A stretch of 64,000 bases of DNA, taken from assembly GCF_001698125.1 (NCBI RefSeq), contig NZ_CP013854.1:2604001-2668000 (forward strand), given 5' to 3'. The position numbers were made by a program, and so were the translations under genes. The notes beneath the pieces are model-generated. The model did not search any database, was not told the DNA's origin, and saw only the letters and a program-made list of their open reading frames with translations. This DNA is from Pseudonocardia sp. HH130630-07 (GTDB lineage: Bacteria; Actinomycetota; Actinomycetes; Mycobacteriales; Pseudonocardiaceae). Positions 30,710-62,563 of this stretch are shown in pieces (the first letter of the stretch is position 1; each line of letters begins with the position of its first letter).

Positions 30710-30758
30710 CACTCATGGAGCTAGAGCCTCGCCTGGCCGGGCTCTAGCTCCATGAGTG
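30710..30758. repeat. 49-bp palindromic repeat, copy A
   Basis: Two 19-nt arms around an 11-nt loop. Left arm CACTCATGGAGCTAGAGCC, right arm its perfect complement. The outer 12 bases (CACTCATGGAGC) are identical in the copies at 31988 and 62515, while the inner stem differs but keeps pairing. It lies between the dehydrogenase and oxidoreductase genes. Confidence 0.85.
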
Positions 30759-30808
30759 GGCCTCGGGGCGGGTGGGTGCGGGCGGGGCCGTGGGGGTAGA
30801 CCGTACTC

Positions 30809-31840
30809 ATGGGTAACGACGTCAACCGTCAGGTGCGGCTCGCCGCGCGGCCGCAGGGGACTCCGGGGCCGGAGGTCTGGGAGCACACCTCCGAGCCGGT
30901 CCCGGAGCCGGGTGCGGGGCGGCTCGTCGTCCGGGTCAGCCACCTCTCGCTCGACCCGGCGATGCGCGGCTGGATGAACGAGGGGAAGTCCTACGCACCG
31001 CCGGTCGGGCTCGGCGAGGTGATGCGGGCGCTGGGCCTGGGCCGGGTCGTGGCCTCGCGGCACCCGGAGTTCTCGGTCGGGGACACGGTGACCGGCGTCG
31101 TCGGGATCCAGGAGTACCTCGAGTCCGACGGCTCCGGCCTGCAGAAGGTGCAGCCCGCCGACGGCGTCCCGCCGGAGCGCTACCTCGCGCTGCTCGGCAT
31201 GACCGGCATGACCGCCTACTTCGGGCTGTTCGACGTCGGTGCGCTGGCCGAGGGCGAGACGGTCGTCGTGTCCGGGGCCGCCGGTGCGGTCGGCAGTGTC
31301 GTCGGGCAGCTCGCGAGGATCCGCGGGGCCCGGGTGATCGGGATCGCCGGGGGCCCGGAGAAGTGTTCGTGGCTCACCGGCGAGCTGGGCTTCGACGCGG
31401 CGATCGACTACCGCACGGAGAACGTCTCGCAGCGCCTGAAGGAGCTGGCACCGGACGGCGTCGACGTCTACTTCGACAACGTCGGCGGCGACATCCTGGA
31501 GGCCGTGCTCGGCCGGCTCGCGATGCACGCCCGGATCGTCATCTGCGGGGCGATCAGCCGGTACAACGCCGAGGGCGTCCCGGCCGGGCCGCGCAACTAC
31601 ATGAACCTGCTGGTGTTCCGGGCCCGGATGGAGGGGTTCCTGGTCGGCGACTACGCCGAGCGCTGGGGCGAGGCGGCCGCCGAGCTCGCCGGATGGCTGG
31701 CGGAGGGCCGCATCCACAGCCGGGAGGACGTCGTCGACGGGACCGTGGACGACTTCCCCGAGGTGCTGCTGCGGCTGTTCCGCGGGGAGAACACCGGCAA
31801 ACTGGTCCTGCGCCTGGGGGAGACCCGGACCGGCTCGTGA
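30809..31840 (+). CDS. NADP-dependent oxidoreductase, zinc-less MDR family (CurA/LTB4DH type)
   Basis: A 343-residue medium-chain reductase that reduces the double bond of enones or 2-alkenals with NADPH, by family. It lacks the catalytic zinc Cys residues. Family features are LSLDPAMRGWMNEGKSY, LLGMTGMTAYFGL, the nucleotide-binding VVVSGAAGAVGSVVGQLARIRGA-type motif, YFDNVGGDILEAVL, and ICGAISRYN. The start is the ATG 50 bp after palindrome A. A strong hairpin follows the stop directly. Confidence 0.88.
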   Translation: MGNDVNRQVRLAARPQGTPGPEVWEHTSEPVPEPGAGRLVVRVSHLSLDPAMRGWMNEGKSYAPPVGLGEVMRALGLGRVVASRHPEFSVGDTVTGVVGIQEYLESDGSGLQKVQPADGVPPERYLALLGMTGMTAYFGLFDVGALAEGETVVVSGAAGAVGSVVGQLARIRGARVIGIAGGPEKCSWLTGELGFDAAIDYRTENVSQRLKELAPDGVDVYFDNVGGDILEAVLGRLAMHARIVICGAISRYNAEGVPAGPRNYMNLLVFRARMEGFLVGDYAERWGEAAAELAGWLAEGRIHSREDVVDGTVDDFPEVLLRLFRGENTGKLVLRLGETRTGS

Positions 31841-31902
31841 TGATCAGCGATCGGGAAGGGATCCGGCCACCCGTGGCCGTCCTGCTTCCCGATCCGTGAT
31901 CA
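31841..31902 (+). terminator. long hairpin terminator after the oxidoreductase gene
   Basis: Outer arms TGATCAGCGATCGGGAAG and its complement pair with two mismatches, enclosing an inner GGCCAC/GTGGCC stem. It begins at the first base after the TGA. No U-tract. Confidence 0.6.
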
Positions 31903-31987
31903 CCGGGTTCCTGGCCGCCGTCCGACCTCCGGGGGCGCAGGGCGCGTCCCGTCCGGTCCGGTCGCCACTCCGGCCCCACCCGATCGG

Positions 31988-32036
31988 CACTCATGGAGCA
32001 AGAGCCCGGCCGGACGAGGCTTTGGCTCCATGAGTG
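31988..32036. repeat. 49-bp palindromic repeat, copy B
   Basis: Left arm CACTCATGGAGCAAGAGCC, loop 11 nt, right arm GGCTTTGGCTCCATGAGTG. Seventeen of 19 positions pair by Watson-Crick rules, one is a G-U pair and one a mismatch. It lies 72 bp upstream of the spermidine-synthase-like gene; its ATGAGTG gives a spurious upstream in-frame start. Confidence 0.85.
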
Positions 32037-32107
32037 CACAACGGGGCGGGGTGCGAGGGGCGGGGCCTGGTTCCCGGGGAGCCGTTCCCGGACGGCACGA
32101 TGGCCCG

Positions 32108-33571
32108 GTGCGCCTCGCCATCGCCCGGACCGCCGTCGTCGTGTCGGGGGCGGCGATCCTCGTCGTCGAGACCCTCGCCACCCGGCTGGTCGCGCCGTAC
32201 GTCGGCCTCACCCTGGAGTCGACGACCGCCGTGATCGGGGTGGCGCTCGCCGGGATCGCCGCGGGCGCCGCGCTCGGCGGGCGCTGGGCCGACCGGCACG
32301 ACCCGGTGGCCGTCGCGGCGCTGATGCTCGTCGTCGGCGGGCTCGGGACGCTCGCGGTGCGGCCGCTGGTACGGCTGCTCGGCCCGGTGCTCGGGGCCGG
32401 GCCGTCCGCGGCGGTGCTGCTCGTCGCGGCGTCCACGCTGGTCTCGGTGACCGCGCTGTCCGCGGTCACGCCCGCGGTCACCAGGGCCCGGCTGACCGGG
32501 CTCGACCGGTCCGGGGAGGTCATCGGCGGGCTGTCCGCGGCCGGGACGATCGGGTCGCTCGCGGGCACCTTCCTCACCGGGTTCGTGCTGGTCGCGCTGT
32601 TCCCGGTGAGCGTGATCCTGCTCCTCACGGCGGCCGCGTGCCTGCTGCTCGGCGTGCTGGTGGCACCGTGGCGGCGCCGTCGGGACGTCGCCCGGGGCGG
32701 CACCGCTGCCGTCCTGCTCGCGGTCGCGCTGGTCGCCGTGCCGGGCCGGTGCGACGCCGACACCACCTACTACTGCGCCTCGGTGCAGCCCGATCCCGGC
32801 GATCCCGCCGGGCGCTACCTCGTGCTCGACGACCTGCGGCACTCCTACGTCCGGCTCGGCGACCCGGCGCACCTGGAGTTCGCCTACACCAAGCGGTTCG
32901 CCGCGGCCGTCGACACGGCGTTCGGGCCCGCGCGGGCGCTGGACGTCGTGCACGTCGGCGGGGGCGCGCTCACCATGCCGCGCTGGCTGGCCGCGACCCG
33001 GCCCGGGAGCACGTCGGCCGTGCTGGAGCTGGACCGCGGCGTGGTCGACCTGGGCGTCCGCGAGCTGGAGGCCGGCGGGATCCCGGGAACCACCGTGCGC
33101 ACCGGTGACGCCAGGGCTGGGCTGGCCGAGCGGCCGGACGACTCGGCGGACGTCGTCATCGGGGACGCGTTCGGCGCCCGCTCGGTGCCGTGGCACCTGT
33201 CCACGGTCGAGTTCGTCGACGAGGTCCGGCGGGTCCTGCGGCCGGGCGGGCTCTACCTGCTCAACGTCATCGACCGGGACCCGCTGGAGCTGGTGCGTGC
33301 GGCCACCGCCACCGTCGGCACCCGGTTCGGCTCGACCGGGCTGGTGGCCCGCCCGTCGGAGTTCGCACCGGGGGGCGGCGGGAACGTCGTGGTCGTCGCG
33401 TCCGACCGGCCGCTCGACCCGGCGGCCCTGGACGGCGCGGTGACGCGCGCCGGGGAGCCCGGCGCCGTCCTGGACCCCGGCCGTACCTCGGCCTTCGCCG
33501 CCGGCGCACCCGTGCTGACCGACGACCGGGCCCCGGTCGACCAGCTCATCACCACCGGGCTGGAGGGCTGA
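32108..33571 (+). CDS. membrane-anchored spermidine synthase-like protein
   Basis: A 487-residue fusion. The first 210 residues form about six hydrophobic helices starting VRLAIARTAVVVSGAAILVVETLATRLVAPYVGL, typical of fused MFS/spermidine-synthase proteins. The C-terminal half is a Rossmann aminopropyltransferase-like domain with VVHVGGGALTMPRWLA, SAVLELDRGVVDLGV, TGDARAGL and VVIGDAFGARSVPWHL. Whether it makes polyamines or uses another substrate is unknown. GTG at 32108 opens directly into the first helix; the ATG at 32030 belongs to palindrome B and adds only low-complexity residues. Confidence 0.8.
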   Translation: MRLAIARTAVVVSGAAILVVETLATRLVAPYVGLTLESTTAVIGVALAGIAAGAALGGRWADRHDPVAVAALMLVVGGLGTLAVRPLVRLLGPVLGAGPSAAVLLVAASTLVSVTALSAVTPAVTRARLTGLDRSGEVIGGLSAAGTIGSLAGTFLTGFVLVALFPVSVILLLTAAACLLLGVLVAPWRRRRDVARGGTAAVLLAVALVAVPGRCDADTTYYCASVQPDPGDPAGRYLVLDDLRHSYVRLGDPAHLEFAYTKRFAAAVDTAFGPARALDVVHVGGGALTMPRWLAATRPGSTSAVLELDRGVVDLGVRELEAGGIPGTTVRTGDARAGLAERPDDSADVVIGDAFGARSVPWHLSTVEFVDEVRRVLRPGGLYLLNVIDRDPLELVRAATATVGTRFGSTGLVARPSEFAPGGGGNVVVVASDRPLDPAALDGAVTRAGEPGAVLDPGRTSAFAAGAPVLTDDRAPVDQLITTGLEG

Positions 33572-33669
33572 GGCCCACCGGACGCCGGGGCCCGCCGCCC
33601 GCCGCCGCGGTCACGCTAGGGTCACGGCGGGACGGGCCGCGGGGCCCGCCGGTACGAGGGGGAGAAGCC

Positions 33670-34110
33670 GTGGCGACCTGGGACGACCTGCACTCCTACG
33701 TGGTGGTGCGGTACGAGATCGTGCGGCAGACGGCGTCCGAGCTGCGCTTCCGGCTCCCCACGACCGGTGACCGCACGCAGCTCGTCATCGTCAAGCGGGT
33801 CCGGGAGGACGCCGCCCAGCCGGGCGTCGAGATCACCGACGCCGCGGCCGCCGTCGCCGACCCGGACCAGGAGTGGGTGCAGATCGAGTCGCCGGTGGCC
33901 CGGGTCGCCGACGTCGACCTGGCCAGGGCCCTGGAGCTCGCCGGGCCCTCGGTCGTCGGCGGGCTCGCGGCGGAGGAGGGCGTCGTCGTCTACCGGCACT
34001 CGATCCCGCTCGGCCCGGCCGCGCTGGACGGCTTCGAGTTCCCCTTCCGCCAGGTCGTCCACCTGGCCGACGAGCTGGAGCACGCCCTGACCGGCCGCGA
34101 CGACAACTAG
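33670..34110 (+). CDS. small unknown protein (possible chaperone-like fold)
   Basis: A 146-residue protein starting with GTG after a GGGGGAGAAG ribosome site. It has alternating strands (YVVVRYEIVRQTASELRFRL, QLVIVKRV, WVQIESPVARVADVDLARALEL, GVVVYRHSIPLG) and a C-terminal helix (FRQVVHLADELEHALTG). This layout resembles YbjN/CesT-like chaperone folds, but that is a weak guess and no motif proves it. Its TAG stop lies in the CTAG at the left border of IS copy 2. Confidence 0.7.
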   Translation: MATWDDLHSYVVVRYEIVRQTASELRFRLPTTGDRTQLVIVKRVREDAAQPGVEITDAAAAVADPDQEWVQIESPVARVADVDLARALELAGPSVVGGLAAEEGVVVYRHSIPLGPAALDGFEFPFRQVVHLADELEHALTGRDDN

Positions 34111-35054
34111 GGCGTGTCTCCCAGATAGGCGGACCGGGGTGCGCGATGCTTGATCGGTGCCGCGTACCGCTGTCCTGACTGATGCCCAGTGGGCCCGTCT
34201 GGCGCCGCTGTTGCCCTCCTCCGAGGGTCGTCGCGGGTGCCCGTTCCGCGATGACCGCCGGGTGCTCGAGGGGATCATCTACCGGTATCGGTGCGGGCTT
34301 CCCTGGCGCGACGTCCCAGCCGAGTTCGGGCCGTGGCAGACGTTGTGGAAGCGGCACCGCCGCTACAGCGGCGACGGCACCTGGGACCACATCCTGGCTG
34401 CTCTTCTGGTCGAGGCCGACGCCGCCGAGGTGCTCGGGTGGGCGGTCAGCGTGGACTCCACGATCATCCGTGCCCACCAGCACGCCGCGACCCTCAAGCG
34501 CGACACAGGGGGCCGGATCGAACTACACGAATCTGCTCGCCGAACCAGCAGATCACGCGCTGGGACGGTCCCGCGGAGGGCTGTCGACGAAGATCCACCA
34601 GCTCGTTGACGGGCACGGCCGCCCGCTGGTGGTCCTCCTCGGCCCCGGCCAGGGCGGCGACTCGCCAATGTTTCCGCACCTGATGGCGCGCCTGAGCATC
34701 GCCCGACCGGGCCCGGGACGACCCCGGACCCGGCCTGAACGCGTGCGCGCGGACAAGGCCTACTCCTCACGCGCGATCCGCCGGCACCTGCGCGAGCGCC
34801 GGATCATCGCTGTCATTCCGGAGCCCTCTGACCAGCAGGGACACCGCAAACGACGGGGCTCACGCGGTGGCCGACCGCCCGCATTCGATCCGGTCGACTA
34901 CCGAAACCGCAACGTCGTCGAGTGCGGGTTCTGCCACGTCAAGCAGTGGCGCGGGCTGGCCACCCGTTACGACAAGCTCGCCCTGACCTTCCGCGGCGGC
35001 GCCGTCCTGAAGGCGATCGTCACCTGGCTCCGCGCATTGGGAGACACGCCCTAG
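34107..35054 (+). mobile_element. IS5-family element, copy 2
   Basis: Element body 34111-35050 (940 bp) with CTAG on both sides (34107-34110 and 35051-35054). Terminal inverted repeats are GGCGTGTCTCCCA at the left and the same motif read inwards at the right. Nearly identical to the copy at 60.9 kb, with at least two base differences (one changes a Cys to Arg in orfA, one is in an end). It sits at the stop codon of the small unknown gene and 50 bp upstream of the superoxide dismutase start. Confidence 0.93.
34157..35054 (+). CDS. IS5-family DDE transposase, two overlapping frames
   Basis: OrfA (GTG at 34157, closed at 34609) carries LTDAQWARLAPLLPSSEGRR, GLPWRDVPAEFGPWQTLWKR and the first catalytic Asp in SVDSTIIRAHQHA. 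OrfB, in the +1 frame, carries HALGRSRGGLSTKIH, the second Asp in RADKAYSS and the catalytic Glu in the Y-(2)-R-(3)-E-(6)-K signature YRNRNVVECGFCHVK. A full DDE enzyme needs a frame change, probably at the five-G run (34508-34512) where the frames overlap. The frame ends at TAG in the right-hand CTAG, so the element brings no stop of its own. Likely active. Confidence 0.88.
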
Positions 35055-35057
35055 TCG

Positions 35058-35075
35058 CAGGTCACACCTGACCTG
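35058..35075. promoter_or_regulatory. palindrome CAGGTCA-N4-TGACCTG upstream of sod
   Basis: CAGGTCACACCTGACCTG has perfect 7-bp arms. It lies 30 bp before the superoxide dismutase start and only 4 bp from the right border of IS copy 2. A likely repressor site; the regulator is unknown. Confidence 0.5.
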
Positions 35076-35104
35076 AAGTCCGGTACAGGTCCGAGGCTTC
35101 GGTC

Positions 35105-35704
35105 ATGGCTCAGTACACGCTTCCGGACCTGCCCTACGACTACGGCGCGCTCGCCCCGCACATCGCGCCGGAGATCATGGAGCTGCACCACTCCAAGCAC
35201 CACAACACCTACGTCCAGGGCCTCAACGCCACCCTGGACAAGCTGGCCGAGGCCCGCGAGAAGAACGACTTCGGCGCGATCGTCGGCCTGGAGAAGACCC
35301 TCGCGTTCAACCTCGGCGGCCACGTCAACCACACCGCCTTCTGGAAGAACCTCTCCCCGGACGGCGGCGACAAGCCCACCGGTGACCTGGCCGCCGCGAT
35401 CGACGCCGACTTCGGCTCCTTCGACGCGTTCCAGGCCCACTTCACCGCCGCGGCCACCACCATCCAGGGCTCCGGCTGGGCCATCCTGGGCTACGACCAG
35501 CTCGGGCAGAAGCTGCTGATCCACCAGCTCTACGACCAGCAGTCCCAGCTCCCGGCCGGGCAGACCCCGATCGTCCTGCTCGACATGTGGGAGCACGCCT
35601 TCTACCTGCAGTACAAGAACGTGAAGCCGGACTACGTCAAGGCCTGGTGGAACGTCGTCGACTGGGCCGACGCGGCCGAGCGCCTCGCGGGGGCGCGGGG
35701 GTGA
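35105..35704 (+). CDS. superoxide dismutase, Fe/Mn family
   Basis: Converts superoxide to oxygen and peroxide. The 199-residue protein shows all metal ligands: the first His in [13 protein letters not shown], the second in [13 protein letters not shown], and Asp and His in [11 protein letters not shown]. Fe versus Mn use cannot be settled by eye. There is no signal peptide. The 50 bp left between IS copy 2 and the ATG hold the promoter and a palindrome, so the insertion may have changed its regulation. The flavin reductase ATG overlaps its stop (TGATG). Confidence 0.95.
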
Positions 35705-36216
35705 TGAGCACCCGTACCGATCTCGCCGGGGCCCTGCGGACGGCGTTCCGCGGGCACCCGGCGGGGGTCGCCGTCGTGACCGCGACCGGGGCGGCGGGAC
35801 CGGCGGGGATGACGATGTCGTCGGTCGCCTCGGTGTCCACCGACCCGCCCGCGCTGTCGTTCTCGATGGCGCGCACCGCCCGGCTCGCCGATGCGGTGCT
35901 GGGGTCGGGCTCGGTCGTCGTCCACCTGCTCGACGACGTCGACGCCGGCCTCGCCGCCGACTTCGCCGCGCCCGGTGCGGAGCGGTTCGGGCCCGGGACC
36001 CGGTGGGTGTCGCTGCCGACCGGCGAGCCGTGGCTGCCCGACGTCGGGACGGCCGTGCGTGCCCGGGTGTGCTCGGTCGCCGAGGTCGGGGCGTCGCTGC
36101 TGTTCGCCGCGGAGATCGTGGAGGTGCTCGGGCTGCGGCGGCGCGGCGGGCCGCTCGTCCACGTCGGCCGGGAGTACCGGTCGGTCGGCGCCGGCGCCCT
36201 GCCTCAGGCGGGGTAG
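35704..36216 (+). CDS. flavin reductase-like FMN-binding protein
   Basis: A 170-residue protein of the flavin reductase (NADH:FMN oxidoreductase, HpaC-like) fold: AFRGHPAGVAVVTATG, GMTMSSVASVSTDPPALSFSMART, VHLLDDVDAGLAADFA, and the C-terminal GPLVHVGREYRS. Such proteins supply reduced flavin to a monooxygenase; no partner is adjacent. It is translationally coupled to superoxide dismutase by a TGATG overlap, and its last 13 bp overlap the convergent surE gene. Confidence 0.85.
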   Translation: MSTRTDLAGALRTAFRGHPAGVAVVTATGAAGPAGMTMSSVASVSTDPPALSFSMARTARLADAVLGSGSVVVHLLDDVDAGLAADFAAPGAERFGPGTRWVSLPTGEPWLPDVGTAVRARVCSVAEVGASLLFAAEIVEVLGLRRRGGPLVHVGREYRSVGAGALPQAG

Positions 36217-36989
36217 CCGGTCCCGCCGGGCCGGAAGCCGATCGGGGACAGCTCGGTCACCGTCGGGTGTCCCGCGGCGAGCAGCGCGACGTCGGTACCG
36301 GGCAGCGCCTCGGAGTGCTCCTCGGACACGACCGCGCGCAGGCCGCCGGGCCGGTCGCCGTCCGGGCCGCGGTGCACCATCCGCACCCGCACCGAGCCGG
36401 TCGCGCAGAGCGCGGCCTCGCGCAGCGGCGGGAGCCGGTCGATGCCGACGTCGGGGACGTTGACCGTCCACGGCGTCCCGGCCGGGCGGGAGCGCAACCG
36501 TTCGAGCAGCTCCGGCAGCAGTGCCGTGACGGTGTCCCAGTGCGGACGCCGCGGCACCGCCAGGCCGCAGGCCAGTGACAGCGCGATCCCGGACCAGCCG
36601 TTCAGCGCCCCGGCGAGCACGGCGCCGACCGTCCCGGAGTGCAGCACCTGGCCGCCGGTGTTCGCGCCGATGTTGATCCCGGAGAGCACCACGTCCGGCC
36701 GGCGCTCGAACCAGCCCTGCCCGGCCGCCTGGACGATCCACGCCGGGTCCGCGGCGAGCGCCCAGGCCTCGATCCCGTCCAGCTCGGCGATGTCGTCCCG
36801 GGCGCTCAGCGCGACGTGGCCGTCGTCCTCCGGGCCGACGACCGCCCGGACCGACCCGCCCGCCCCGCTGGCGTCCGACGCCGGGGCGGCCACGACGACG
36901 TCGTACCCCGCCTCCCGCGCCGCCCTGGCCAGCGGATACAGCCCCGGGGACCCGATTCCGTCGTCGTTGGTGATCAGAGCGAGCGGCAC
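36204..36989 (-). CDS. surE: SurE survival protein, 5'/3'-nucleotidase
   Basis: Metal-dependent nucleoside monophosphatase, 261 residues. It opens with LALITNDDGIGSPGL, containing the metal-binding Asp pair, followed by APASDASGAGGS, LSGINIGANTGGQVLHSGTVGAVLAG and WTVNVPD, all SurE signatures. The GTG start at 36989 lies 6 nt after a TAGGCT -10 element. It is divergent from the phosphofructokinase gene. Confidence 0.9.
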   Translation of the reverse strand: MPLALITNDDGIGSPGLYPLARAAREAGYDVVVAAPASDASGAGGSVRAVVGPEDDGHVALSARDDIAELDGIEAWALAADPAWIVQAAGQGWFERRPDVVLSGINIGANTGGQVLHSGTVGAVLAGALNGWSGIALSLACGLAVPRRPHWDTVTALLPELLERLRSRPAGTPWTVNVPDVGIDRLPPLREAALCATGSVRVRMVHRGPDGDRPGGLRAVVSEEHSEALPGTDVALLAAGHPTVTELSPIGFRPGGTGYPA

Positions 36990-36995
36990 CGGCCC

Positions 36996-37001
36996 AGCCT
37001 A
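36996..37001 (-). promoter_or_regulatory. -10 element (TAGGCT), leaderless type
   Basis: On the minus strand TAGGCT ends 6 nt before the surE GTG at 36989. Confidence 0.45.
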
Positions 37002-37095
37002 GTTGCACCCCCGCTCCGGGGGTGTCGGTGCGGTCCACCGGGCCGTAGGCGACGATTGGGGCGGGTACGGGATCGATACACCTGAAGGAGTGCGT

Positions 37096-38472
37096 GTGAC
37101 GACGTGGGAGTACAGCACCATCACTCCGGACGACCTGGCGATCGACACCCTCGGCCCGGCCCGCATCACGTCCCCGCTCGCCCCGCTGCTCGACGCCCGA
37201 CGCACCACCGAGCACTACGTCGACTCCGGTGACCGCGTCCTGCTCGACGACACCGCCAACGGGCTCAAGTCCCGCGGTGTCGACGTCGAGGACCTGCCCG
37301 GGCTGGAGCCCTGCGGCCCGCGCCGCCAGATCTACTTCGACCCGTCGAAGACCCGGGCCGGCATCGTCACCTGCGGCGGGCTCTGCCCGGGGCTCAACGA
37401 CGTCATCGCCGGCCTCGTGCGCACCCTGACCTACCACTACGGCGTGCGCCGGGTGGTCGGGTTCCGCAACGGCTACCGCGGGTTCGTCTCCTCCTACGGG
37501 CACGACGTCGTCGAGCTGACGCCGGAGTCGGTGCGCGAGATCCCGGTCGACGGCGGCACCTTCCTCGGCACCTCGCGCGGCCCGCAGGACCCCGAGGAGA
37601 TCGTCGACTGCCTGGAGCAGATGCACCTCAACGTGCTGTTCGTGATCGGCGGCGACGGCACGATGCGCGGCGCCATGGAGATCGCCAGGGTGGTCGCCGA
37701 GCGGAGCCTGCGGATCGCCGTCGTCGGGATCCCGAAGACGATCGACAACGACATCCCGTTCATCGACCAGAGCTTCGGCTTCCAGACGGCGTTCTCCCAG
37801 GCCAGTGACGCCATCCGGTCGGTGACGGTGGAGGCCAAGTCCACCCCGGGCGGGGTCGGGCTGGTCAAGCTGATGGGCCGGCACTCCGGCTTCATCGCCT
37901 GCTACGCCTCGCTCGTCCGGTCCGACGCGGACGCCGTCCTCATCCCCGAGGTGCCGTTCGAGCTCGACGGTGAGACCGGCCTGCTGCACCACCTGCGACG
38001 ACGGGTGGAGCAGCGCGGGCACGCGGTCGTCGTCGTCGCGGAGGGGGCCGGGCAGGAGCTGCTGCCGCCGGTGGGGCGCACCGACGCGTCGGGCAACGCG
38101 AAGCTCGCCGACATCGGCCCGTGGATGCGGGAGCGGATCACCGAGTCCTTCGCCGGGGCCGGGATGGAGACGACGGTGCGCTACGTCGACCCCAGCTACC
38201 TGATCCGCAGCGTCCCGGCGAACCCGTACGACAGCGTCTACACCGTGCGGCTGTCCCAGGCCGCGGTGCACGCCGCGATGTCCGGACGGACGGCGATGGT
38301 CGTCGGCCGCGTCCGCCGCCGGTTCGTGCACATCCCGATGTCCCTCGCGGTGAGCCGCCGCAACCAGGTCGACCCGTACGGGGACCTGTGGATGGCGGTG
38401 CTGGAGTCGACCGGCCAGCCGTGGCGGTTCGGCGAGGACTCCGGCGCCCCGACCCGCGCCCCGCACACCTGA
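37096..38472 (+). CDS. 6-phosphofructokinase (plant/trypanosome-like ATP group)
   Basis: Phosphorylates fructose 6-phosphate in glycolysis. The 458-residue protein belongs to the long PFK group: GIVTCGGLCPGLNDVIAGLVR, NGYRGF, VIGGDGTMRGAMEI, GIPKTIDNDIPFIDQSFGF, VKLMGRHSGFIA, IPEVPFELDG. Gly rather than Asp after GGD indicates ATP use, whereas PKTIDND is shared with pyrophosphate-dependent enzymes; this pair is seen in plant and trypanosome ATP-PFKs. The start is GTG at 37096, five nt after GAAGGAG. The short frame upstream (from 37003) is not conserved. Confidence 0.9.
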   Translation: MTTWEYSTITPDDLAIDTLGPARITSPLAPLLDARRTTEHYVDSGDRVLLDDTANGLKSRGVDVEDLPGLEPCGPRRQIYFDPSKTRAGIVTCGGLCPGLNDVIAGLVRTLTYHYGVRRVVGFRNGYRGFVSSYGHDVVELTPESVREIPVDGGTFLGTSRGPQDPEEIVDCLEQMHLNVLFVIGGDGTMRGAMEIARVVAERSLRIAVVGIPKTIDNDIPFIDQSFGFQTAFSQASDAIRSVTVEAKSTPGGVGLVKLMGRHSGFIACYASLVRSDADAVLIPEVPFELDGETGLLHHLRRRVEQRGHAVVVVAEGAGQELLPPVGRTDASGNAKLADIGPWMRERITESFAGAGMETTVRYVDPSYLIRSVPANPYDSVYTVRLSQAAVHAAMSGRTAMVVGRVRRRFVHIPMSLAVSRRNQVDPYGDLWMAVLESTGQPWRFGEDSGAPTRAPHT

Positions 38473-38510
38473 CGTACCAGCCGTCCGCGCTGCGGAACCG
38501 GCCCGGACCG

Positions 38511-42158: not shown

Positions 42159-42167
42159 CCCGCGCCT

Positions 42168-42196
42168 CCCGGGACGGCCGGACCGGCCGTCCCGGG
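42168..42196. terminator. bidirectional palindromic terminator
   Basis: CCCGGGACGGCCGG and its exact complement separated by one base, in the 45-bp gap between the convergent thiolase and ppa genes. Confidence 0.65.
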
Positions 42197-42203
42197 GTGC
42201 CGG

Positions 42204-53184: not shown

Positions 53185-53186
53185 CC

Positions 53187-54065: not shown

Positions 54066-54430
54066 CCGCCGACCGGATCGAGCTGCGCGGGCTGCGGGTC
54101 CGGGGCCACCACGGCGTCTTCGACCACGAGAAGCGCGACGGGCAGGAGTTCGTCGTCGATCTCGTCGTGCACGCCGACCTGTCCGCCGCAGCGGCGTCCG
54201 ACGACCTCGCCGACACCCTGCACTACGGCGAGCTCGCCGAGCTGGCCGCCGGGATCGTGGCCGGCCCGGCGCGCGACCTGATCGAGTCGGTCGCCGGCGC
54301 GGTGGCCGACGCGGTGCTGGCCTCGGACAAGCGGATCCGCGAGGTCGAGGTGACCCTGCACAAACCCTCGGCGCCGATCCCGCTGACGTTCGACGACGTC
54401 GCCGTCGTCCTGCGCCGGGGGCGGTCGTGA
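54062..54430 (+). CDS. folB: dihydroneopterin aldolase
   Basis: Cleaves dihydroneopterin to 6-hydroxymethyl-dihydropterin and glycolaldehyde. The 122-residue protein has [28 protein letters not shown] with the substrate-binding Glu region, DTLHYGELA and the catalytic Lys in [14 protein letters not shown] start overlapping the folP stop; its own stop overlaps folK. Confidence 0.94.
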
Positions 54431-54939
54431 CCCGCGCGGTGCTCTCGCTGGGATCGAACCTGGGTGACCGGCTCGGGCACCTGCGCTCCGTCGTCGCCGG
54501 CCTGGGGCCTGCCGTCGTGGCCGTCTCCCCGGTGTTCGAGACGGCGCCGTGGGGCGTGACCGACCAGCCGGACTTCCTCAACGCCGTGCTGGTCGCCGAG
54601 GACCCGGCGCTGGACGCGTGGGGCTGGCTGCGCCGGGGCCAGGCGCTGGAGGACTCCTCGGGCCGGGTGCGCGAGCAGCGCTGGGGTCCGCGGACGCTGG
54701 ACGTCGACGTCGTCCAGGTCGTCGACGGGGCCGTCCCGGTGCTCTCCGCGGACCCTGATCTGCTGTTGCCGCACCCGGGCACCCCGGAGCGCAGCACGGT
54801 GCTGCTGCCCTGGCTGCTCGCCGAGCCCGGGGCGGTCCTGCACGGGCACGGCCTGGTCCGCGCGCTGCTGGACCGGCTCGGCCCGGACGCGCTCGACGGC
54901 GTCGTCCGGCGGGACGACCTGGTCCTGGTGCCGGGGTGA
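54427..54939 (+). CDS. folK: 6-hydroxymethyl-dihydropterin pyrophosphokinase
   Basis: Transfers pyrophosphate from ATP to hydroxymethyl-dihydropterin. The 170-residue HPPK has [53 protein letters not shown] (the metal-binding Asp pair) and [17 protein letters not shown] (usually PHPRLxxRxFVL). GTG start overlapping folB by GTGA. Confidence 0.94.
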
Positions 54940-55457
54940 GCGCCCCCGATCCGGCGGGGCGGCGCCCGGGGCCCGACCCGGACCCCCGGCCGACCGTGCC
55001 CCCGACCCGCTACCGCGATCTCGCCGGGATCTTCGTGGTCACGGCACTGCTGGGCAACATTCTCGTCCAGCTGACGTATTCGATGTTGCCGGTGCTGCCG
55101 AACGCGGCCGGTGCGACGGTGGGGGTGCTCGCGGTCGCCGAGTTCGGCGGCGGGTTCGTGCTGCGCCGGAGGATCGAACGCCGCAACGGGGCGTTGCCGG
55201 TGCCGCCGCTGGTGGCCGCCCGTGCGGTGCTGCTGGCGAAGGCGTCGTCGGTGGGCGGGGCGATCGTCGCCGGGCTGTGGGCGGGACTGCTGCTGCACAC
55301 CGTGCCGCAGGCGGGCCAGGTGGTCGCCGCGTACGCCGACAGCCTCGCGGCCGGGCTCGGCCTCCTCTGCGCGTTCCTGCTCGTCGGGGCGGCGTTGTGG
55401 CTGGAGCACTGCTGCCGGGCTCCCGACGACCCCGACGACGGCGTCCACCCCGGCTGA
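54936..55457 (+). CDS. DUF3180 membrane protein
   Basis: A 173-residue protein with a Pro-rich cytosolic N-terminus and four hydrophobic segments (YRDLAGIFVVTALLGNILV, LPNAAGATVGVLAVAEFG, SVGGAIVAGLWAGLLLHTV, AAGLGLLCAFLLVGAALWLE). DUF3180 genes regularly follow folK in actinobacteria. GTGA overlap with folK shows coupling. Function unknown. Confidence 0.85.
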   Translation: MSAPDPAGRRPGPDPDPRPTVPPTRYRDLAGIFVVTALLGNILVQLTYSMLPVLPNAAGATVGVLAVAEFGGGFVLRRRIERRNGALPVPPLVAARAVLLAKASSVGGAIVAGLWAGLLLHTVPQAGQVVAAYADSLAAGLGLLCAFLLVGAALWLEHCCRAPDDPDDGVHPG

Positions 55458-55524
55458 GGGCCCGGACGGGTGTGGTGCGCGCCTCGCCCGGCGCGCACGA
55501 GCGGTGGTCGGCCGCGGGATTCTC

Positions 55525-55530
55525 TACGCT
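55525..55530 (+). promoter_or_regulatory. -10 element (TACGCT), leaderless type
   Basis: TACGCT ends 8 nt before the ATG at 55539 and supports that start for the PrsW-family gene. Confidence 0.45.
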
Positions 55531-55538
55531 CCCGGGCC

Positions 55539-57596
55539 ATGGTCTCCCCCACGGTGTCCGGCCGGATCCCGCTCGGCCCGGCCCCGTCCGCGAAGCGTCG
55601 CGGTGTCCTGCTGCCGGTCGTCGGGCTGGTGGTGCTGGCGCTGCTGACGGTGATGACGATCGGCGTGCTGCAGCGCGCGATCGGCACCGGCGGCGTCGTG
55701 ATCGGGACCCTGGTCGCGCTGCTGCCCGTCGTGCCGGTGGTCGCGGCGTTCCTGTGGGTGGACCGCTGGGAGCCGGAACCGCCCCGGATGCTGATGGGCG
55801 CGTTCCTCTGGGGCGCCGGGTTCGCCGCGCTGGTGTCGCTGCTGATCAACACCAGCGCGTCGGCGGTGCTGGACGCGGCCGCCGGGCGGGGCGCCGGGGA
55901 CCTGTTCGGGCCGATCGTGGTGGCCCCGATCGTCGAGGAGTTCGCCAAGGGGCTGTTCATCGTCGGGCTGCTGGTCTTCCGGCGGCGCGAGTTCGACGGC
56001 ATCGTCGACGGGATCGTCTACGCCGGCATCATCGCGGCGGGTTTCGCGTTCAGCGAGAACATCCTGTACCTGGGACGCGCGGTCTCCGATCCGGAGACCG
56101 CGGGCGTGCTGTCGACGCTGTTCGTGCGCGGGATCGCCTCGCCGTTCGCGCACCCGCTGTTCACCTGCATGATCGGCATCGCGGCCGGGCTGTCGGTCGC
56201 CAGCCGCAGCATCGGCGCCCGGGTGCTGGCGCTGCTCGGCGGCTACCTCGCGGCGGTGGTGCTGCACGCGCTGTGGAACGGGGCGTCGGTGCTGGCGGCC
56301 TCGCCCGGGGTGTTCTACGAGATCTACGCGTTCGTCATGGTGCCGCTGTTCGCCGGGATGTTCACGCTGGTCGTGTACGCCCGGCGGCGCGAGGCGCGGA
56401 TCGTCGCCGCGCAGCTGCCCGGGTTCGCCGCGGCCGGGTGGATCGCGCCGAGCGAGGTGCCGCTGCTCGCCCGGCTGTCCCGGCGCCGGGGCTGGCAGGC
56501 GCTGGTCCGCAGGCGGTCCGGGAAGGCGGCGGCGAAGGCGGTCGCCGAGTACCAGGCCGCGGTCACCGAGCTGGCGTTCATGCGCAACCGGATCGCCCGG
56601 GGCGCGGTCCAGGACAGCGCGTCGGAGCTGCACGACGAGAAGCTGGCCGCCGTCCTGCGGACCCGGGCGATCGCCGTCGGGGTGCCGGAGGCGCTGGTCG
56701 CCGCGTGGGCCCGGCAGCGCCCGTCGGGCTGGCAGCCGCCGCCCCCGGCCGCACCGGACGGCAGCTTCTCCGGCGCGTTCAAGATCCCCGACCTCGGCGC
56801 GGAGGCGTCCCCGGGGACGGGCGGTCCGGCGCCGGGCCGTCCCGCCGGTTCCGTTGGTCCTGGTCCTGGTCCTGGTCGCGGGCCCGGGAGCCCGTCGGGT
56901 GCGCCGCACGGGCCCGGGGCGGGCCGGGGCTCCGATCCGGGTGCTCGCGGGCCGGACGCCGGATTCCCGCCGGGCGGTCCCGGTCCCGGTCCGTCGGGCT
57001 CCGGGGGCGCCATCCCGCCGGGCGGTGCCGGGACGCCCACGCCCACGCCGCTGCGCGGAGCCGGACCCGCCCAGTCGCACTCCGGTCCCGGCCACGCGCA
57101 GCCGCAGGGCGGTGCCGGAGCGGGGCGACCGGGCAGCGCCGGTGCGGGGCAGCCGGGCGGCGCCGGTGCGGGGCAACCTGGCGGCGCAGGTGCACCCGGC
57201 GGTGCCGCAACCGGGCTGCCGGCGGACGGGCGGCCCGTGCAGCCTGCCGGCGGCGACCGGGCCGGGGGACCGGTGCCGCGCGCCGACCAGGGACGACCGG
57301 GTCCGCCCGGCCGCGACGCCGCCGGGCGACCGGTGCCCCCGGATCCGTACGGGCCGACCCGGCCGGTCCGGCGTCCCGCCGAACCGCCCGCCGCGCCCGG
57401 CAGCCCGGCCGACCCCACCGGCGCGTCCGGCACCCCCGCCCCCGCGTCGGGCGACCCCGGCCCTGCGTCCGGCGACCCCGGCGCCGATCCGTCCGGCCAC
57501 GGGCGGCACCACGACGATCCCGCGAACCCGGGCCTCACCCGGCCGATGCGCCGTCCGGACGAGCCGGAGCCCGACCGGTCCCGCCCGGCCGACTGA
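55539..57596 (+). CDS. PrsW-family intramembrane metalloprotease with long tail
   Basis: Polytopic membrane protease; in Bacillus the family founder cleaves an anti-sigma factor. The 685-residue protein has about eight hydrophobic segments in the first 290 residues. Family motifs are VAPIVEEFAKGLFIVGLL (EExxK), GFAFSENILYLG, FAHPLFTCMIGIAAG and VVLHALWNGASVL. Residues about 295-405 form a soluble helical region. The last 280 residues are a low-complexity Gly/Pro/Ala/Arg tail. It lies where mycobacteria have an Ala/Arg/Pro-rich membrane protein (Rv3604c position). No anti-sigma factor is visible nearby. Confidence 0.85.
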   Translation: MVSPTVSGRIPLGPAPSAKRRGVLLPVVGLVVLALLTVMTIGVLQRAIGTGGVVIGTLVALLPVVPVVAAFLWVDRWEPEPPRMLMGAFLWGAGFAALVSLLINTSASAVLDAAAGRGAGDLFGPIVVAPIVEEFAKGLFIVGLLVFRRREFDGIVDGIVYAGIIAAGFAFSENILYLGRAVSDPETAGVLSTLFVRGIASPFAHPLFTCMIGIAAGLSVASRSIGARVLALLGGYLAAVVLHALWNGASVLAASPGVFYEIYAFVMVPLFAGMFTLVVYARRREARIVAAQLPGFAAAGWIAPSEVPLLARLSRRRGWQALVRRRSGKAAAKAVAEYQAAVTELAFMRNRIARGAVQDSASELHDEKLAAVLRTRAIAVGVPEALVAAWARQRPSGWQPPPPAAPDGSFSGAFKIPDLGAEASPGTGGPAPGRPAGSVGPGPGPGRGPGSPSGAPHGPGAGRGSDPGARGPDAGFPPGGPGPGPSGSGGAIPPGGAGTPTPTPLRGAGPAQSHSGPGHAQPQGGAGAGRPGSAGAGQPGGAGAGQPGGAGAPGGAATGLPADGRPVQPAGGDRAGGPVPRADQGRPGPPGRDAAGRPVPPDPYGPTRPVRRPAEPPAAPGSPADPTGASGTPAPASGDPGPASGDPGADPSGHGRHHDDPANPGLTRPMRRPDEPEPDRSRPAD

Positions 57597-57768
57597 ACCG
57601 TCCCGGGAGCGCGTCCCCGGGGCGGGTGAGGCCGGTCATACCGGGCTCGCGGCGGACCGGCGCGCGTCTACCCTCGCGTCCGGCACACCGCCGCCGATGG
57701 CGGTGCGCGACCGCGGATTGCCCGACCGGTACCAGCACGGACCGGAGCGGGAGGAAACGGAACTGACT

Positions 57769-58683
57769 GTGATCGATGCCGGCCGTCCTGCGCGGCTCGC
57801 CGTCGGCGTGGTCTCCGCCGGACGTGTCGGTTCGGTACTCGGAGCCGCGCTGGCCAGGGCGGGCCACCACGTCGTCGCCGCCTCGGGGGTCTCGAAGGCC
57901 TCCGTCCGGCGGGCGGCGGAGCTGCTGCCCGACACCCCGCTGCTGCCTCCGGACGAGGTCTGCACCCGGGCCGACCTGGTCCTGCTCGCCGTGCCCGACG
58001 ACGTCCTGCCGGGCCTCGTACGCGGGCTCGCGGCGGCGGGCTGCTTCCGGCCCGGGCAGATCGTCGTGCACACCGCGGGATCGCTGGGGACCGCGGTGCT
58101 GGATCCGGCCACCGAGCAGGGTGTCCTGCCGCTGGCCCTGCACCCGGCGATGACGTTCACCGGCCGGCCCGAGGACGTCGAGCGCCTCGCGTCCTGCTGC
58201 GTCGGCGTCACCGCGCCCGGCGCGCCCGAGGACGGCGACCCCCGCGACACCGTCGGCTGGAGCGTCGCCGAGGCACTGGTCCTGGAGATGTCGGCCGAGC
58301 CGGTGCGTATCGCCGAGTCGGTGCGGCCGCTCTACCACGCGGCGCTCGCACACGGCGCCAACCACCTGATGACGCTGGTCGGGGACTGCGTCGAGCTGCT
58401 GGAGTCCGCCGGGATCCGGCCGGCCGACCGGCTCGTCGCCCCGCTGCTGTCCGCGGCGCTGGACAACGCGCTGCGCCACGGTGACCGCGCGCTGACCGGA
58501 CCGGTCGCCCGGGGCGACGCCGGGACCGTCCGGACCCACCTGGACCGGATCGGCGACGCCGCGCCGGACCTCGCCGTCGCCTACCGCGCGCTGGCCGCGC
58601 GCACCGCCCGCCGGGCCGCGGCGGCCGGACTGCTGGCGCCGGCCGACCTGGCCGCCGTGGAGAAGACCCTGGAGGACCAGTGA
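57769..58683 (+). CDS. Rossmann-like DUF2520 oxidoreductase
   Basis: A 304-residue protein with an N-terminal NAD(P)-binding fold ([24 protein letters not shown]) and a C-terminal DUF2520 helical domain ([50 protein letters not shown]). It is similar in layout to ketopantoate and pyrroline-5-carboxylate reductases and always sits before panC in actinobacteria, so a role in pantothenate supply is tempting but unproven. GTG at 57769 with GGAGGAAA upstream. A TACCCT near 57670 may be its -10. Confidence 0.85.
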
Positions 58684-59552
58684 GCACCACCCGGAACGGC
58701 TACGCGCCCGGCCGGCTGACCGTCCACTCCGACCCGGCCAAGCTGGGCCCGGTCACCCGGGCGCTGCGCGGGGCGGGACGGAAGGTCGTGCTGATCCCGA
58801 CCATGGGCGCCCTGCACGACGGGCACCGGGAGCTGATCCGGCACGCCCGCCGGGTGCCCGGCTCGGTCGTCCCGGTGGTGTCGATCTTCGTCAACCCGCT
58901 GCAGTTCGGGGCGGGGGAGGACCTCGACCGCTACCCGCGCCCGCTGGAGGCCGATCTCGACGTCTGCCGCGAGGAGGGCGTCGAGCTGGTGTTCACCCCG
59001 CAGCCCGAGACCATGTACCCGCCGGGCTCCGACACCCGGATCGCGGCCGGAGCGCTCGGTGACGACCTGGAGGGCGCCAGCCGCAAGGGCCACTTCGACG
59101 GGGTGCTGACGGTCGTCGCGAAGCTGCTGCACATCGTCGCGCCGGACGTCGTGATGTTCGGCGAGAAGGACTACCAGCAGCTCACCCTGGTCCGCCGGAT
59201 GGTGCGCGACCTCGACTTCGGCGTGCACGTGGTCGGCGTGCCCACGGTCCGCGAGGACGACGGCACCGCCCGCTCCTCGCGCAACGTCTTCCTCGACGCC
59301 GACCGGCGTCCGGCGGCCGCCGTGCTGTCCAGGGCGTTGCGCGCCGGTGCCGCGGTGTCGGCCCGCGGCCCGGACGCCGTGCTCGCCGCGGCCCGGGCGG
59401 AGCTGGAGACCGAGCCCGGCGTCGTCGTCGACTACCTGGAGCTGCGGGGTGCCGACCTGGGCCCCGCACCCGACCACGGCGACGGCCGCCTGCTGGTCGC
59501 CGCCCGGGTCGGCAGCACCCGCCTGATCGACAACATCGCGATCGCGCTGTAG
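58680..59552 (+). CDS. panC: pantothenate synthetase
   Basis: Joins pantoate and beta-alanine using ATP. The 290-residue protein has [19 protein letters not shown] (HIGH-like ATP site), [51 protein letters not shown] and [15 protein letters not shown] start overlapping the DUF2520 stop (GTGA). Confidence 0.95.
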
Positions 59553-59578
59553 GTCCGCAGAACCTCCGAGGAGTGCCC

Positions 59579-59989
59579 GTGTACCGCACGATGATGAAGT
59601 CCAAGATCCACCGCGCCACCGTCACCCAGGCCGACCTGCACTACGTCGGCTCGGTGACGATCGACGCCGACCTGATGGCGGCCGCCGACCTGCTCGAGGG
59701 CGAGCAGGTCACGATCGTCGACATCACCAACGGCGCCCGCCTGGAGACCTACGCGATCACCGGCGAGGCCGGGTCCGGGACCATCGGGATCAACGGCGCC
59801 GCCGCGCACCTGGTGCACCCCGGCGACCTCGTCATCCTCATCTCCTACGGCTCCTACGACGAGGCCGAGCTGCGCGGGTACCGGCCGCGGGTGGTGTTCG
59901 TCGACGCCGACAACGCGATCGCCGACCTCGGGGCCGACCCGGGCCGGGCCCCGGAGGGCTCGGGGCTGCTGACCTCCGCCGCCCGCTAG
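59579..59989 (+). CDS. panD: aspartate 1-decarboxylase proenzyme
   Basis: Makes beta-alanine for pantothenate. The 136-residue proenzyme self-cleaves between Gly24 and Ser25 ([13 protein letters not shown]) to form a pyruvoyl cofactor; this numbering holds with the GTG at 59579, five nt after CGAGGAG, and not with the GTG at 59573. Other signatures are [28 protein letters not shown] and [20 protein letters not shown]. Its TAG stop overlaps the coaX start. Confidence 0.95.
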
Positions 59990-60798
59990 TGCTGCTCTGC
60001 ATCGACGTGGGGAACACCCACGTCTCGCTGGGGCTCTATCCGGAGCCGGCACCGGGCACCGACCCGTCGGCGCTGTCCCCGGAGCCCGAGCGGCGCTGGC
60101 GGATGCGCACCGACACCCGGGCCACCGCCGACGAACTGGACCTGACGGTCACCGGGATGCTCGGTGCCCGGTTCGCCGAGGTCGACGCCGTCGCGGCGCT
60201 GTCCACGGTGCCGGGGCCGTCGCGGGAGCTGCGGTCGCTGCTGGACCGGTGGTCGGACCGGATGCGGGCGCTGGTCGTCGGGCCGGGGGTGCGGACTGGC
60301 GTCCCGCTGCTGGTCGACCATCCGCGCGAGGTCGGTGCCGACCGGATCGTGAACTCCCTCGCCGCGCACCACCTGTTCGGGACCACCTGCGTCTGCGTCG
60401 ACCTGGGCACCTGCACCAACATCGACGTCGTCTCGGCGAAGGGCGAGTTCCTGGGCGGTGCGTTCGCGCCGGGGATCGACATCGCGATGCAGGCGCTGGC
60501 CGAGCGGGCGTCGTCGCTGCGGCCGGTCGATCTCGTGGAGCCGCGCTCGGTGATCGGCCGGACGACGGTCGAGGCCGTCCAGTCCGGGGTGCTCTACGGG
60601 GCGGCCGGGCAGGTCGACGGCCTGGTGCGGCGGATCATCGCCGAGCTGGGGCCGTCGGCGGGGCCGGTCACCGTCGTCGTCACCGGCGGGCTGGCGGAGC
60701 TGGTGGCGGGGCGGGCGGACACCATCACCGCGCACGTCCCGGACCTGACGCTGCACGGGTTGCGCCTGACCCACCTGCGCCACCACCGGCCGCGCTGA
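59989..60798 (+). CDS. coaX: type III pantothenate kinase
   Basis: First step of CoA synthesis. The 269-residue ASKHA-fold kinase begins LLCIDVGNTHVSLGLY (phosphate-binding loop), then VGADRIVNSLAAHHLFG, VCVDLGTCTNIDVVSAKGEFLGGAFAPGI and VVTGGLAELV. The GTG start shares its G with the panD stop (TAGTG). The broken methyltransferase gene ends 2 nt downstream on the other strand. Confidence 0.94.
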   Translation: MLLCIDVGNTHVSLGLYPEPAPGTDPSALSPEPERRWRMRTDTRATADELDLTVTGMLGARFAEVDAVAALSTVPGPSRELRSLLDRWSDRMRALVVGPGVRTGVPLLVDHPREVGADRIVNSLAAHHLFGTTCVCVDLGTCTNIDVVSAKGEFLGGAFAPGIDIAMQALAERASSLRPVDLVEPRSVIGRTTVEAVQSGVLYGAAGQVDGLVRRIIAELGPSAGPVTVVVTGGLAELVAGRADTITAHVPDLTLHGLRLTHLRHHRPR

Positions 60799-60938
60799 CC
60801 TCAGCCGCGGACGGCCCGCGCGACGATCGTCCGCATCGGCAGGCCGAACGTCCCGGACGCGGTCTCCGGGCGGTGTGCGAGGTAGTCGCGCATCCGGTCC
60901 AGCACGGCCTCGCGCCCGGCCGGGTCGGCGGTCAGCGA

Positions 60939-61836
60939 CTAGGGTGTGTCTCCCAATGCGCGGAGCCAGGTGACGATTGCCTTCAGGACGGCGCCGCCGC
61001 GGAAGGTCAGGGCGAGCTTGTCGTAACGGGTGGCCAGCCCGCGCCACTGCTTGACGTGGCAGAACCCGCACTCGACGACGTTGCGGTTTCGGTAGTCGAC
61101 CGGATCGAATGCGGGCGGTCGGCCACCGCGTGAGCCCCGTCGTTTGCGGTGTCCCTGCTGGTCAGAGGGCTCCGGAATGACAGCGATGATCCGGCGCTCG
61201 CGCAGGTGCCGGCGGATCGCGCGTGAGGAGTAGGCCTTGTCCGCGCGCACGCGTTCAGGCCGGGTCCGGGGTCGTCCCGGGCCCGGTCGGGCGATGCTCA
61301 GGCGCGCCATCAGGTGCGGAAACATTGGCGAGTCGCCGCCCTGGCCGGGGCCGAGGAGGACCACCAGCGGGCGGCCGTGCCCGTCAACGAGCTGGTGGAT
61401 CTTCGTCGACAGCCCTCCGCGGGACCGTCCCAGCGCGTGATCTGCTGGTTCGGCGAGCAGATTCGTGTAGTTCGATCCGGCCCCCTGTGTCGCGCTTGAG
61501 GGTCGCGGCGTGCTGGTGGGCACGGATGATCGTGGAGTCCACGCTGACCGCCCACCCGAGCACCTCGGCGGCGTCGGCCTCGACCAGAAGAGCAGCCAGG
61601 ATGTGGTCCCAGGTGCCGTCGCCGCTGTAGCGGCGGTGCCGCTTCCACAACGTCTGCCACGGCCCGAACTCGGCTGGGACGTCGCGCCAGGGAAGCCCGC
61701 ACCGATACCGGTAGATGATCCCCTCGAGCACCCGGCGGTCATCGCGGAACGGGCGCCCGCGACGACCCTCGGAGGAGGGCAACAGCGGCGCCAGACGGGC
61801 CCACTGGGCATCAGTCAGGACAGCGGTACGCGGCAC
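60939..61836 (-). CDS. IS5-family DDE transposase, two overlapping frames
   Basis: Same organisation as the transposase at 34.1 kb: orfA from GTG at 61836 (first catalytic Asp in SVDSTIIRAH), a +1 frame change near a five-G run, and orfB with RADKAYSS and the Y-(2)-R-(3)-E-(6)-K signature. OrfB is identical in protein sequence to the other copy; orfA differs by one residue (GRRGRPF instead of GRRGCPF). Its TAG stop lies in the flanking CTAG. Confidence 0.88.
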
Positions 61837-61886
61837 CGATCAAGCATCGCGCACCCCGGTCCGCCTATCTGGGAGACACGCCCTAG
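60939..61886 (-). mobile_element. IS5-family element, copy 3
   Basis: Element body 60943-61882 (940 bp) flanked by CTAG (60939-60942, 61883-61886). It is the reverse-oriented near-twin of copy 2; visible differences are T for C at the fifth base after the CTAG of one end, and one codon in orfA (Arg instead of Cys). Such near identity indicates recent transposition. It splits the methyltransferase gene. Confidence 0.93.
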
Positions 61887-62514
61887 GAGTGGGTGCGCTG
61901 GTTCGCCAGGTAGTCCTCGGTGGTGGTGGGGCGGGTCCAGCGCAGCACCCGGCCGGTGTGCCCGGTGAACCACGGCGCCCCCGGGAGCCCCGGCCCCTCG
62001 CCGCCGCCGGCCGGGTTGTCCACCGGGGCCGGGCTGCCGGTGCGCACCTCGTCGAGCCCGGCGATCCAGCCGATCTCGCCGTCGGCGCCGTTCCACAGCC
62101 CCGCGAACGTCCCGCCGGGACGCAGCACCCGGACGATCTCCGCCGCCGAGCGCTCCGGGTCGAACCAGTGCACCGCCTGCCCGGCGACGACCGCGTCGAC
62201 CGACCCGTCGGGCAGCGGGATCCGTTCCGCGGCGCCCGGTACCGCGTCGAGCCCGGGGAACCGCCCGCGCAGGACGGCGAGCATCTCCGGGTCGGGCTCC
62301 ACTGCGGTCACCGACAGTCCGCGGGCCAGCAACGACGCCGTGAGCTTCCCGGTCCCGGCCCCGAGGTCGAGCACCCGGCTGCCGGCGCCCCCGGCATCCC
62401 CCAGCGCGAACCCGACCGCCGCGTCCGGATACCCCGGCCGGAACCGCTCGTACTCCCGCGCCGCCGCCCCGAAGCTGCGCGCCCGGGGATCGGCGGGCCT
62501 CCCCTCCCCGTCCG

Positions 62515-62563
62515 CACTCATGGAGCTTCGGCCCGGTGCAGCGAGGCCGAAGCTCCATGAGTG
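62515..62563. repeat. 49-bp palindromic repeat, copy C
   Basis: Left arm CACTCATGGAGCTTCGGCC, 11-nt loop, right arm its perfect complement. It lies between the divergent methyltransferase and lysS genes, and its left arm supplies the methyltransferase start codon (ATGAGT on the minus strand). Confidence 0.85.

Follow-up and report, generated by a model that had tools for sequence, protein, structure and literature searches.

The question raised by a 64,000-nt stretch of Pseudonocardia sp. HH130630-07 (C1:2604001-2668000 of this 6.68-Mb source genome, G000 below; the whole stretch is referred to as the window) is what a 49-bp palindrome that occurs there three times may be, as a preliminary description had named a mobile palindrome, a structured 5' leader and a protein-binding element as options. 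Our answer, to which we lean with slightly better than even confidence, is a RAYT-less, REPIN-like non-autonomous mobile hairpin that is kept at gene 3' ends. Published work links REP-type repeats to RAYT transposases and treats CGTC repeats as an orphan class (PMC3733652). The family described here is an actinobacterial case of the REPIN layout without a tag or a Y1 match, and its relatives show different dialects, i.e. spellings of their own, in some identical gene gaps; it allows direct questions about the mobiliser of such hairpins and about a possible function at gene ends for which they are kept.

The window contains three 49-bp copies with identical outer 12-mers at the positions previously reported, compared to no match in each of 100 dinucleotide shuffles, and when up to two mismatches were allowed the outer 12-mer had six sites, every one an arm of these copies:

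30710..30758, no strand assigned: palindrome copy 1, 49 bp, CACTCATGGAGC-N25-GCTCCATGAGTG, 76 nt past the stop of the plus-strand gene 29491-30633
31988..32036, no strand assigned: palindrome copy 2, 49 bp, between two plus-strand genes, 147 nt past a stop; one A.G mismatch and one G.U wobble in the stem
62515..62563, no strand assigned: palindrome copy 3, 49 bp; lies in a divergent gap and overlaps the start called for a minus-strand methyltransferase gene

Each copy had been said to keep its own pairing, which applies to 30710 and 62515 with 19 Watson-Crick pairs, but not fully to 31988, where the mismatch and the wobble interrupt the 19-bp stem. That one copy supplies a start codon is doubtful for 31988, as the codon-usage gene call begins 78 nt further in and in the same frame, whereas at 62515 the ATG of the called methyltransferase gene does lie inside the element. 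RNA folds of four copies with 20-nt flanks gave z-scores of -6.9 to -10.2 against shuffles, and Rfam 15 at the gathering score gave no match within the window.

The repeat family proved to be real and far larger than these three copies, since G000 carries 77 copies whose outer 12-mers are perfect, and the number rises to 105 when three mismatches are tolerated. A detailed set of 97 copies, derived from 62 fetched regions around copies plus the window, comprised 90 distinct sequences with no mismatch in the outer 24 positions in 77, one in 18, two in two and three to six in none; a further 17 matches had seven to eight outer mismatches. Half-copies account for two or more of these, in L082, and the remainder look like chance. 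Counted over half-elements, conservation was 99-100% at positions 2-12, 91% at position 1 and 97-99% at positions 17-19 and 22, with 13-16, 20-21 and 23-25 being variable and the inner 25 bases constant in length. Conservation was highest in the 49-bp core, and the flanks follow a soft consensus that is T-poor and G-rich on the right and mirrored on the left. A few copies (flanks at L029:8899, L037:8001 and L052:8001) have GTCCGGTTCGGG beside the core in place of the usual GAACCGGGG, and the relative G014 has GTCCGGTTCGGG in the gap of L029:8899 too. The richest half-megabase bin of G000 was C1:2.0-2.5 Mb, with 21 of the 97 copies. In the window the flanks and the gene between copies 1 and 2 are as follows:

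30680..30709, no strand assigned: left flank of copy 1, C-rich, soft family consensus, the mirror of the G-rich right flank S-R-A-C-S-GGGGGCGGGG
30759..30790, no strand assigned: right flank of copy 1, G-rich
32037..32066, no strand assigned: right flank of copy 2, G-rich
62564..62590, no strand assigned: right flank of copy 3, G-rich
30809..31840, plus strand: zinc-type dehydrogenase gene (PF16884, PF00107), an ordinary host gene and not a transposase

Covarying stems had been described for the three copies, and arm-to-arm matching is indeed found across the family, although weaker than claimed in G000 itself. At positions 13-16 the arms agreed in 22 of 32 copies from G014 (8.2 expected, P below 0.0001) and in 8 of 22 from a second relative, G254 (3.4 expected, P 0.002), one 48-bp copy having been left out of 33 G014 elements and L102 out of 23 G254 elements; the effect is thus strong in the former and clear in the latter, while it was modest in G000 with 44 of 97 copies (35.4 expected, P 0.015). 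Similarly, positions 10-12 agreed in 30 of 32 copies from G014 (23.3 expected) and in 14 of 22 from G254 (7.7 expected), and are hardly variable in G000. The opposite was observed at positions 20-21 of G000, where the arms agreed less than expected (26 of 97 copies against 41.6, P 0.0005), with a weak trend to disagreement at position 21 in G014 (P 0.06), P 0.05 at the same position in G254, and nothing for positions 20-21 jointly in G254. The stem is thus kept together with a mismatched upper part, a pattern that repair limited to the arms would not leave.

When a covariance model was applied to 62 genomes of the genus, 12 matched at E 0.01 or better, two of these weakly; up to 97 candidates per genome were scored, so that the copy counts from this model are lower bounds for G000 and G014. 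A scan of 249 genomes of the bacterial family with CACTCATG-N27..39-CATGAGTG led to five matching genomes, namely G000, G014 and G254 together with two more that each have one site unlike the others; related elements were also detected in Pseudonocardia sp. KRD291 and in a Pseudonocardia metagenome-assembled genome, with elements and flanks equal to those of G312 and G317. The dialects differ at position 18, where 98% of the arms in G000 have C and 97-98% of those in G014 and G254 have T, and at position 16, which is G or A in G000 and G014 and C in G254. Mean differences over the 49 positions within one genome were 6.7 in G000, 5.8 in G014 and 13.4 in the looser G254. The dialects of G000 and G014 are tight and those of G254, G317 and G312 more varied, and the searches found few elements or none in G178, G027 and G002. 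A CTCGAGGAGC dialect, with two elements in G307 and one in G178 among the matches listed, was rejected as an amplified family because a reversed control matched about as often or more at up to two mismatches.

Gene positions, taken from codon-usage gene calls made in this analysis, placed 42 of the 97 copies in convergent gaps, 38 in co-directional gaps, 15 in divergent gaps and two inside called frames, and a stop codon lay within 60 nt for 67 of the 95 gap copies. Convergent orientation accounted for 36 of 80 element-bearing gaps versus 173 of 1,038 element-free gaps (odds ratio 4.1, P 1.6e-8), the latter likewise taken from the regions fetched around copies. Co-directional gaps that measured at least 150 nt and held one element numbered 20; in these the median stop distance was 43 nt, and the elements lay at a mean relative position of 0.24 counted from the stop, lower than in any of 20,000 uniform draws. 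The structured 5' leader is therefore rejected for most copies.

The same gene gap as a G000 copy was occupied by 8 of the 33 G014 elements examined and by 4 of the 23 G254 elements (one of these, L206, with a close anchor on one side only; the G000 gap corresponding to L089 has approximately 0.9 kb extra). The G014 set takes in three neighbouring gaps around a gene we take to be lipA; this name, as well as DUF4191 and glnA, was assigned from the translations. In a search with masked flanks, evaluated for the best 30 of 38 matches, some apparently empty sites proved to be occupied in a different dialect, by an element of G178 in the gap of L062:8001 and by one of G307 and, weakly, of G300 in the gap of L085:8001, each with its own spelling; the unmasked search for joined flanks was not used, as the best 39 of 510 matches were mostly other family members. 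Some gaps between genes are thus occupied in G000 and also in G014, G254, G178 or G307, by elements whose spelling differs. The eight G000-G014 pairs in shared gaps differed at a mean of 11.5 of 49 positions (11.3 for random inter-genome pairs), and the four G000-G254 pairs had 17.0 differences, the same as random pairs. We do not claim shared gaps as proof of one old insertion: behind the gene at L040:8001 the element is present in G000 and G014 only, of 30 orthologues read, whereas in a one-gene tree (29 rows) G178, without the element, groups with G000, which favours repeated hits or losses there.

Relatives also differ in the whole units that they carry. The units of L049:8001, L050 and L055 (two copies) are missing from G178, where the gaps are 125, 108 and 172 nt shorter, indicating that the flanks are absent along with the units; the other 7 of 11 placed entries in this comparison were rearranged or ambiguous. 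The G014 units L193 and L199, flanks included, are absent from G000, which shows clean empty sites.

From the roughly 100 copies, the REPIN layout and the units present in one relative and absent from another we infer mobility, which supports the mobile palindrome among the options named before. The unit consists of two near-invariant inverted 12-bp ends around a 25-bp spacer of fixed length, so that one strand of the unit folds into a stem of approximately 19 bp with a mismatched apical part. It is accompanied by roughly 15-30 nt of soft flank on either side, C-rich on one and G-rich on the other. An enzyme acting in trans, presumably by recognition of the ends or the hairpin, would copy the unit to new places, and each genome's own dialect may be explained by such copying. 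Copies would be retained mainly at distances of up to 60 nt past a stop codon, in many cases in the gap between two convergent genes; there the hairpin, strong on both strands, probably terminates or protects transcripts.

Several observations weigh against this model. No mobiliser was found: Y1_Tnp/RAYT (PF01797) had no match in G000, G014, G254, G317 or G312, with matches in 5 of 62 genus genomes and in 5 of 14 control genomes. At the empty sites compared with G178 or by masked flank search no target-site duplication could be defined; a miniature inverted-repeat transposable element of a DDE transposon would have such a duplication and terminal inverted repeats that stay conserved to their tips, and in this family conservation peaks in the 49-bp core with soft flanks. 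The 11 G000 copies in gaps common with G014 or G254 have no or one outer mismatch, despite a four-fold site identity between G000 and G014 of 66% (52 orthologues, proteins 86% identical, random expectation 47%), meaning that passive decay of old copies is not seen and that selection, rewriting or repeated insertion is needed. Mispairs on the sense strand of 38 co-directional copies were G.T in 19 cases and A.C in 15, and since G.T is not favoured there is no sign of RNA-specific selection. Pairing between the flanks of 67 single copies was no higher than in shuffles, ruling out a longer palindrome that runs through the flanks. Finally, no doublets below 400 bp occur among 33 G014 elements, and 15 of the 97 G000 copies sit in divergent gaps.

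Other origins were considered as well. No transposase was found in the 25 commonest of 215 Pfam families among the copy neighbours (150 of 159 genes scanned), at most five genes share a family, and the neighbours look like ordinary genes. An insertion sequence or gene carried between copies was rejected because self-comparison of the 159 neighbour genes gave one recent duplicate pair, amino-acid permease. Three exact patterns had no match in viral contigs and one 91-bp query none among plasmids, which argues against a phage or plasmid origin for sets that may miss records very near G000.

Among known systems the layout resembles REPINs most. ERIC- and YPAL-type repeats, compared by description only, are palindromic, intergenic and near gene ends, and with more than 100 bp they are longer than the 49-bp family. 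REPINs are REP doublets that form a hairpin, found in Pseudomonas fluorescens and others. Their ends do not vary, both the length of the spacer and its hairpin are important, and they show compensatory changes, lie outside genes and keep preferred distances to their neighbours; excised copies have been sought in deep reads (PMC3116915). The Pseudonocardia family shares with them highly conserved inverted ends, a fixed-length variable spacer that forms a hairpin, compensatory changes, extragenic positions and preferred neighbour distances. However, the whole Pseudonocardia element measures 49 bp, while the neighbour-distance peaks given there for REPINs are 71 and 110 bp (PMC3116915). It also differs in the missing Y1/RAYT match, in the weak spacer pairing in G000 and in a location mostly at gene 3' ends, often convergent. 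The GTAG tag, already noted to be missing in the window, is missing from the larger set too, as none of the 97 copies shows it up to 8 nt away from an end. A further shared trait is copy number, since REPs usually exceed 100 copies per genome (PMC2817692); REPIN persistence is treated elsewhere (PMC8049555). CGTC-tagged REPs are short dispersed palindromes with a stem of 8-9 bp and a short loop, apparently without a dedicated transposase, and in this respect similar to our family; Actinobacteria are not among the phyla given for GTAG and CGTC repeats in the passages concerned (PMC3733652). In contrast to them, the Pseudonocardia stem is approximately 19 bp long, and CGTC occurs within 8 nt in 18 of 97 copies without any constant tag. 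Stem-loop sequence (SLS) families are likewise intergenic stem-loop repeats, surveyed in 40 genomes including Mycobacterium and Corynebacterium, and the main text of that survey does not contain the word Pseudonocardia (PMC2267715). In the literature searched, no title or abstract described palindromic repeats of Pseudonocardia or actinobacteria, and the six papers containing the two 12-mers deal, judged by title, with other subjects.

The spacing of copies bears on two further explanations. Fifteen neighbour pairs in G000 lie less than 400 bp apart, at offsets of 64, 65, 65, 74, 75 (six), 85 (two), 119, 120 and 161, and the doublets of G254 (21 loci) at 74 (three), 75, 85 and 85. Increments this close to a helical turn, found in two dialects, suggest that a complex forms at some stage on DNA that is double-stranded. 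Outside full copies, the regions examined contained eight 12-mer arms with no more than one mismatch. Four of them are lone right arms (GCTCCATGAGTG, one mismatched) whose distance to the start of a full copy is 68 or 78 nt (L071:9813, L077:8069, L082:8079 and L082:9822), again with a 10-nt step. The copies may be binding sites for a sequence-specific double-strand DNA-binding protein acting on the nucleoid, as an insulator or as a roadblock at transcription-unit ends, with dialects reflecting protein and sites that change together. The near-invariance of positions 2-12, the excess of differing arms at 20-21 in G000, the shared-gap copies without decay, the doublet steps and the four lone right arms would all fit. 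Nevertheless, we consider it rather doubtful, as a dimer site needs no arm matching at variable positions, which was seen in three genomes, whole units occur in some relatives and not in others, the 33 G014 elements are free of doublets and no candidate protein was found. A variant of the mobile-hairpin model, which we put forward tentatively, is that copies stay where they were inherited but are respelled along with the rest of the genome dialect, by an enzyme that recognises the hairpin and either re-inserts at or converts existing copies. Positions would then outlive sequence, and the steps of about 10 bp would reflect a complex on one helix face; the shared gaps with G178 and G307 add some weight to this variant.

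Neutral palindrome mechanics might generate covariation and dialects without selection, template switching making arms alike and short gene conversion making the copies of a genome alike. This would agree with shared-gap pairs being as different as random ones, with position 16 being unlinked to positions 20, 23 and 24 within arms, and with the permease genes L048:2705-4203 and L068:6386-7887, whose common 1.5-kb stretch is 99% identical, includes a family copy and loses homology at the copy's edge. Yet repair would even out positions 20-21 too, exactly where the arms differ in G000, with the weaker signals at position 21 and none for both positions in G254 as given above. Nor would it keep positions 2-12 at 99-100% alongside variable positions 13-16, and it leaves units whose counterpart gaps in relatives are empty without an explanation, so that we regard it as very improbable. 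Plain transcription terminators, occasionally duplicated with their genes and with the hairpin kept by selection, are a further explanation, consistent with stop-codon proximity and convergent bias. The 3' slot of an acyl-CoA dehydrogenase gene also holds a strong palindrome in 16 of 18 genomes, in G000, G254 and G312 the family element and in 13 another palindrome. Identical outer stems in about 100 places are not needed for termination, though, and element-free genomes mostly lack a hairpin at the other slots read: one was found in 6 of 28 at the L040 gene, in 1 of 14 at lipA and, with a worn G254 copy left out, in 4 of 14 at the presumed DUF4191 gene. Together with 15 of 97 divergent copies and just one recent copy-carrying gene duplication among the 159 neighbour genes, this makes plain terminators unlikely. 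The pooled base profile of 194 flanks was G-rich and T-poor behind the hairpin, giving no intrinsic-terminator T run, single copies not having been scanned for such runs. For the mobile hairpin, these data suggest a terminator role at gene ends, but not a general one.

Some other palindromes were observed in or near the slots compared. In the acyl-CoA dehydrogenase slot, L256, L257 and L258 (G026, G318 and G272) carry a different long palindrome (CGGACGAACGGCACTC...), possibly another repeat family. Palindromic units that resemble GAGTGGCTCAAGCG lie beside the presumed DUF4191 gene at L235, L236 and L237 of G318, G026 and G272, and they are repeated in the last two genomes. A long near-perfect palindrome containing GTGAGTGG...CCACTCAC was detected at G178 C1:2686920 (in L138) and is a little like the one of G025 behind the acyl-CoA dehydrogenase gene (L255).

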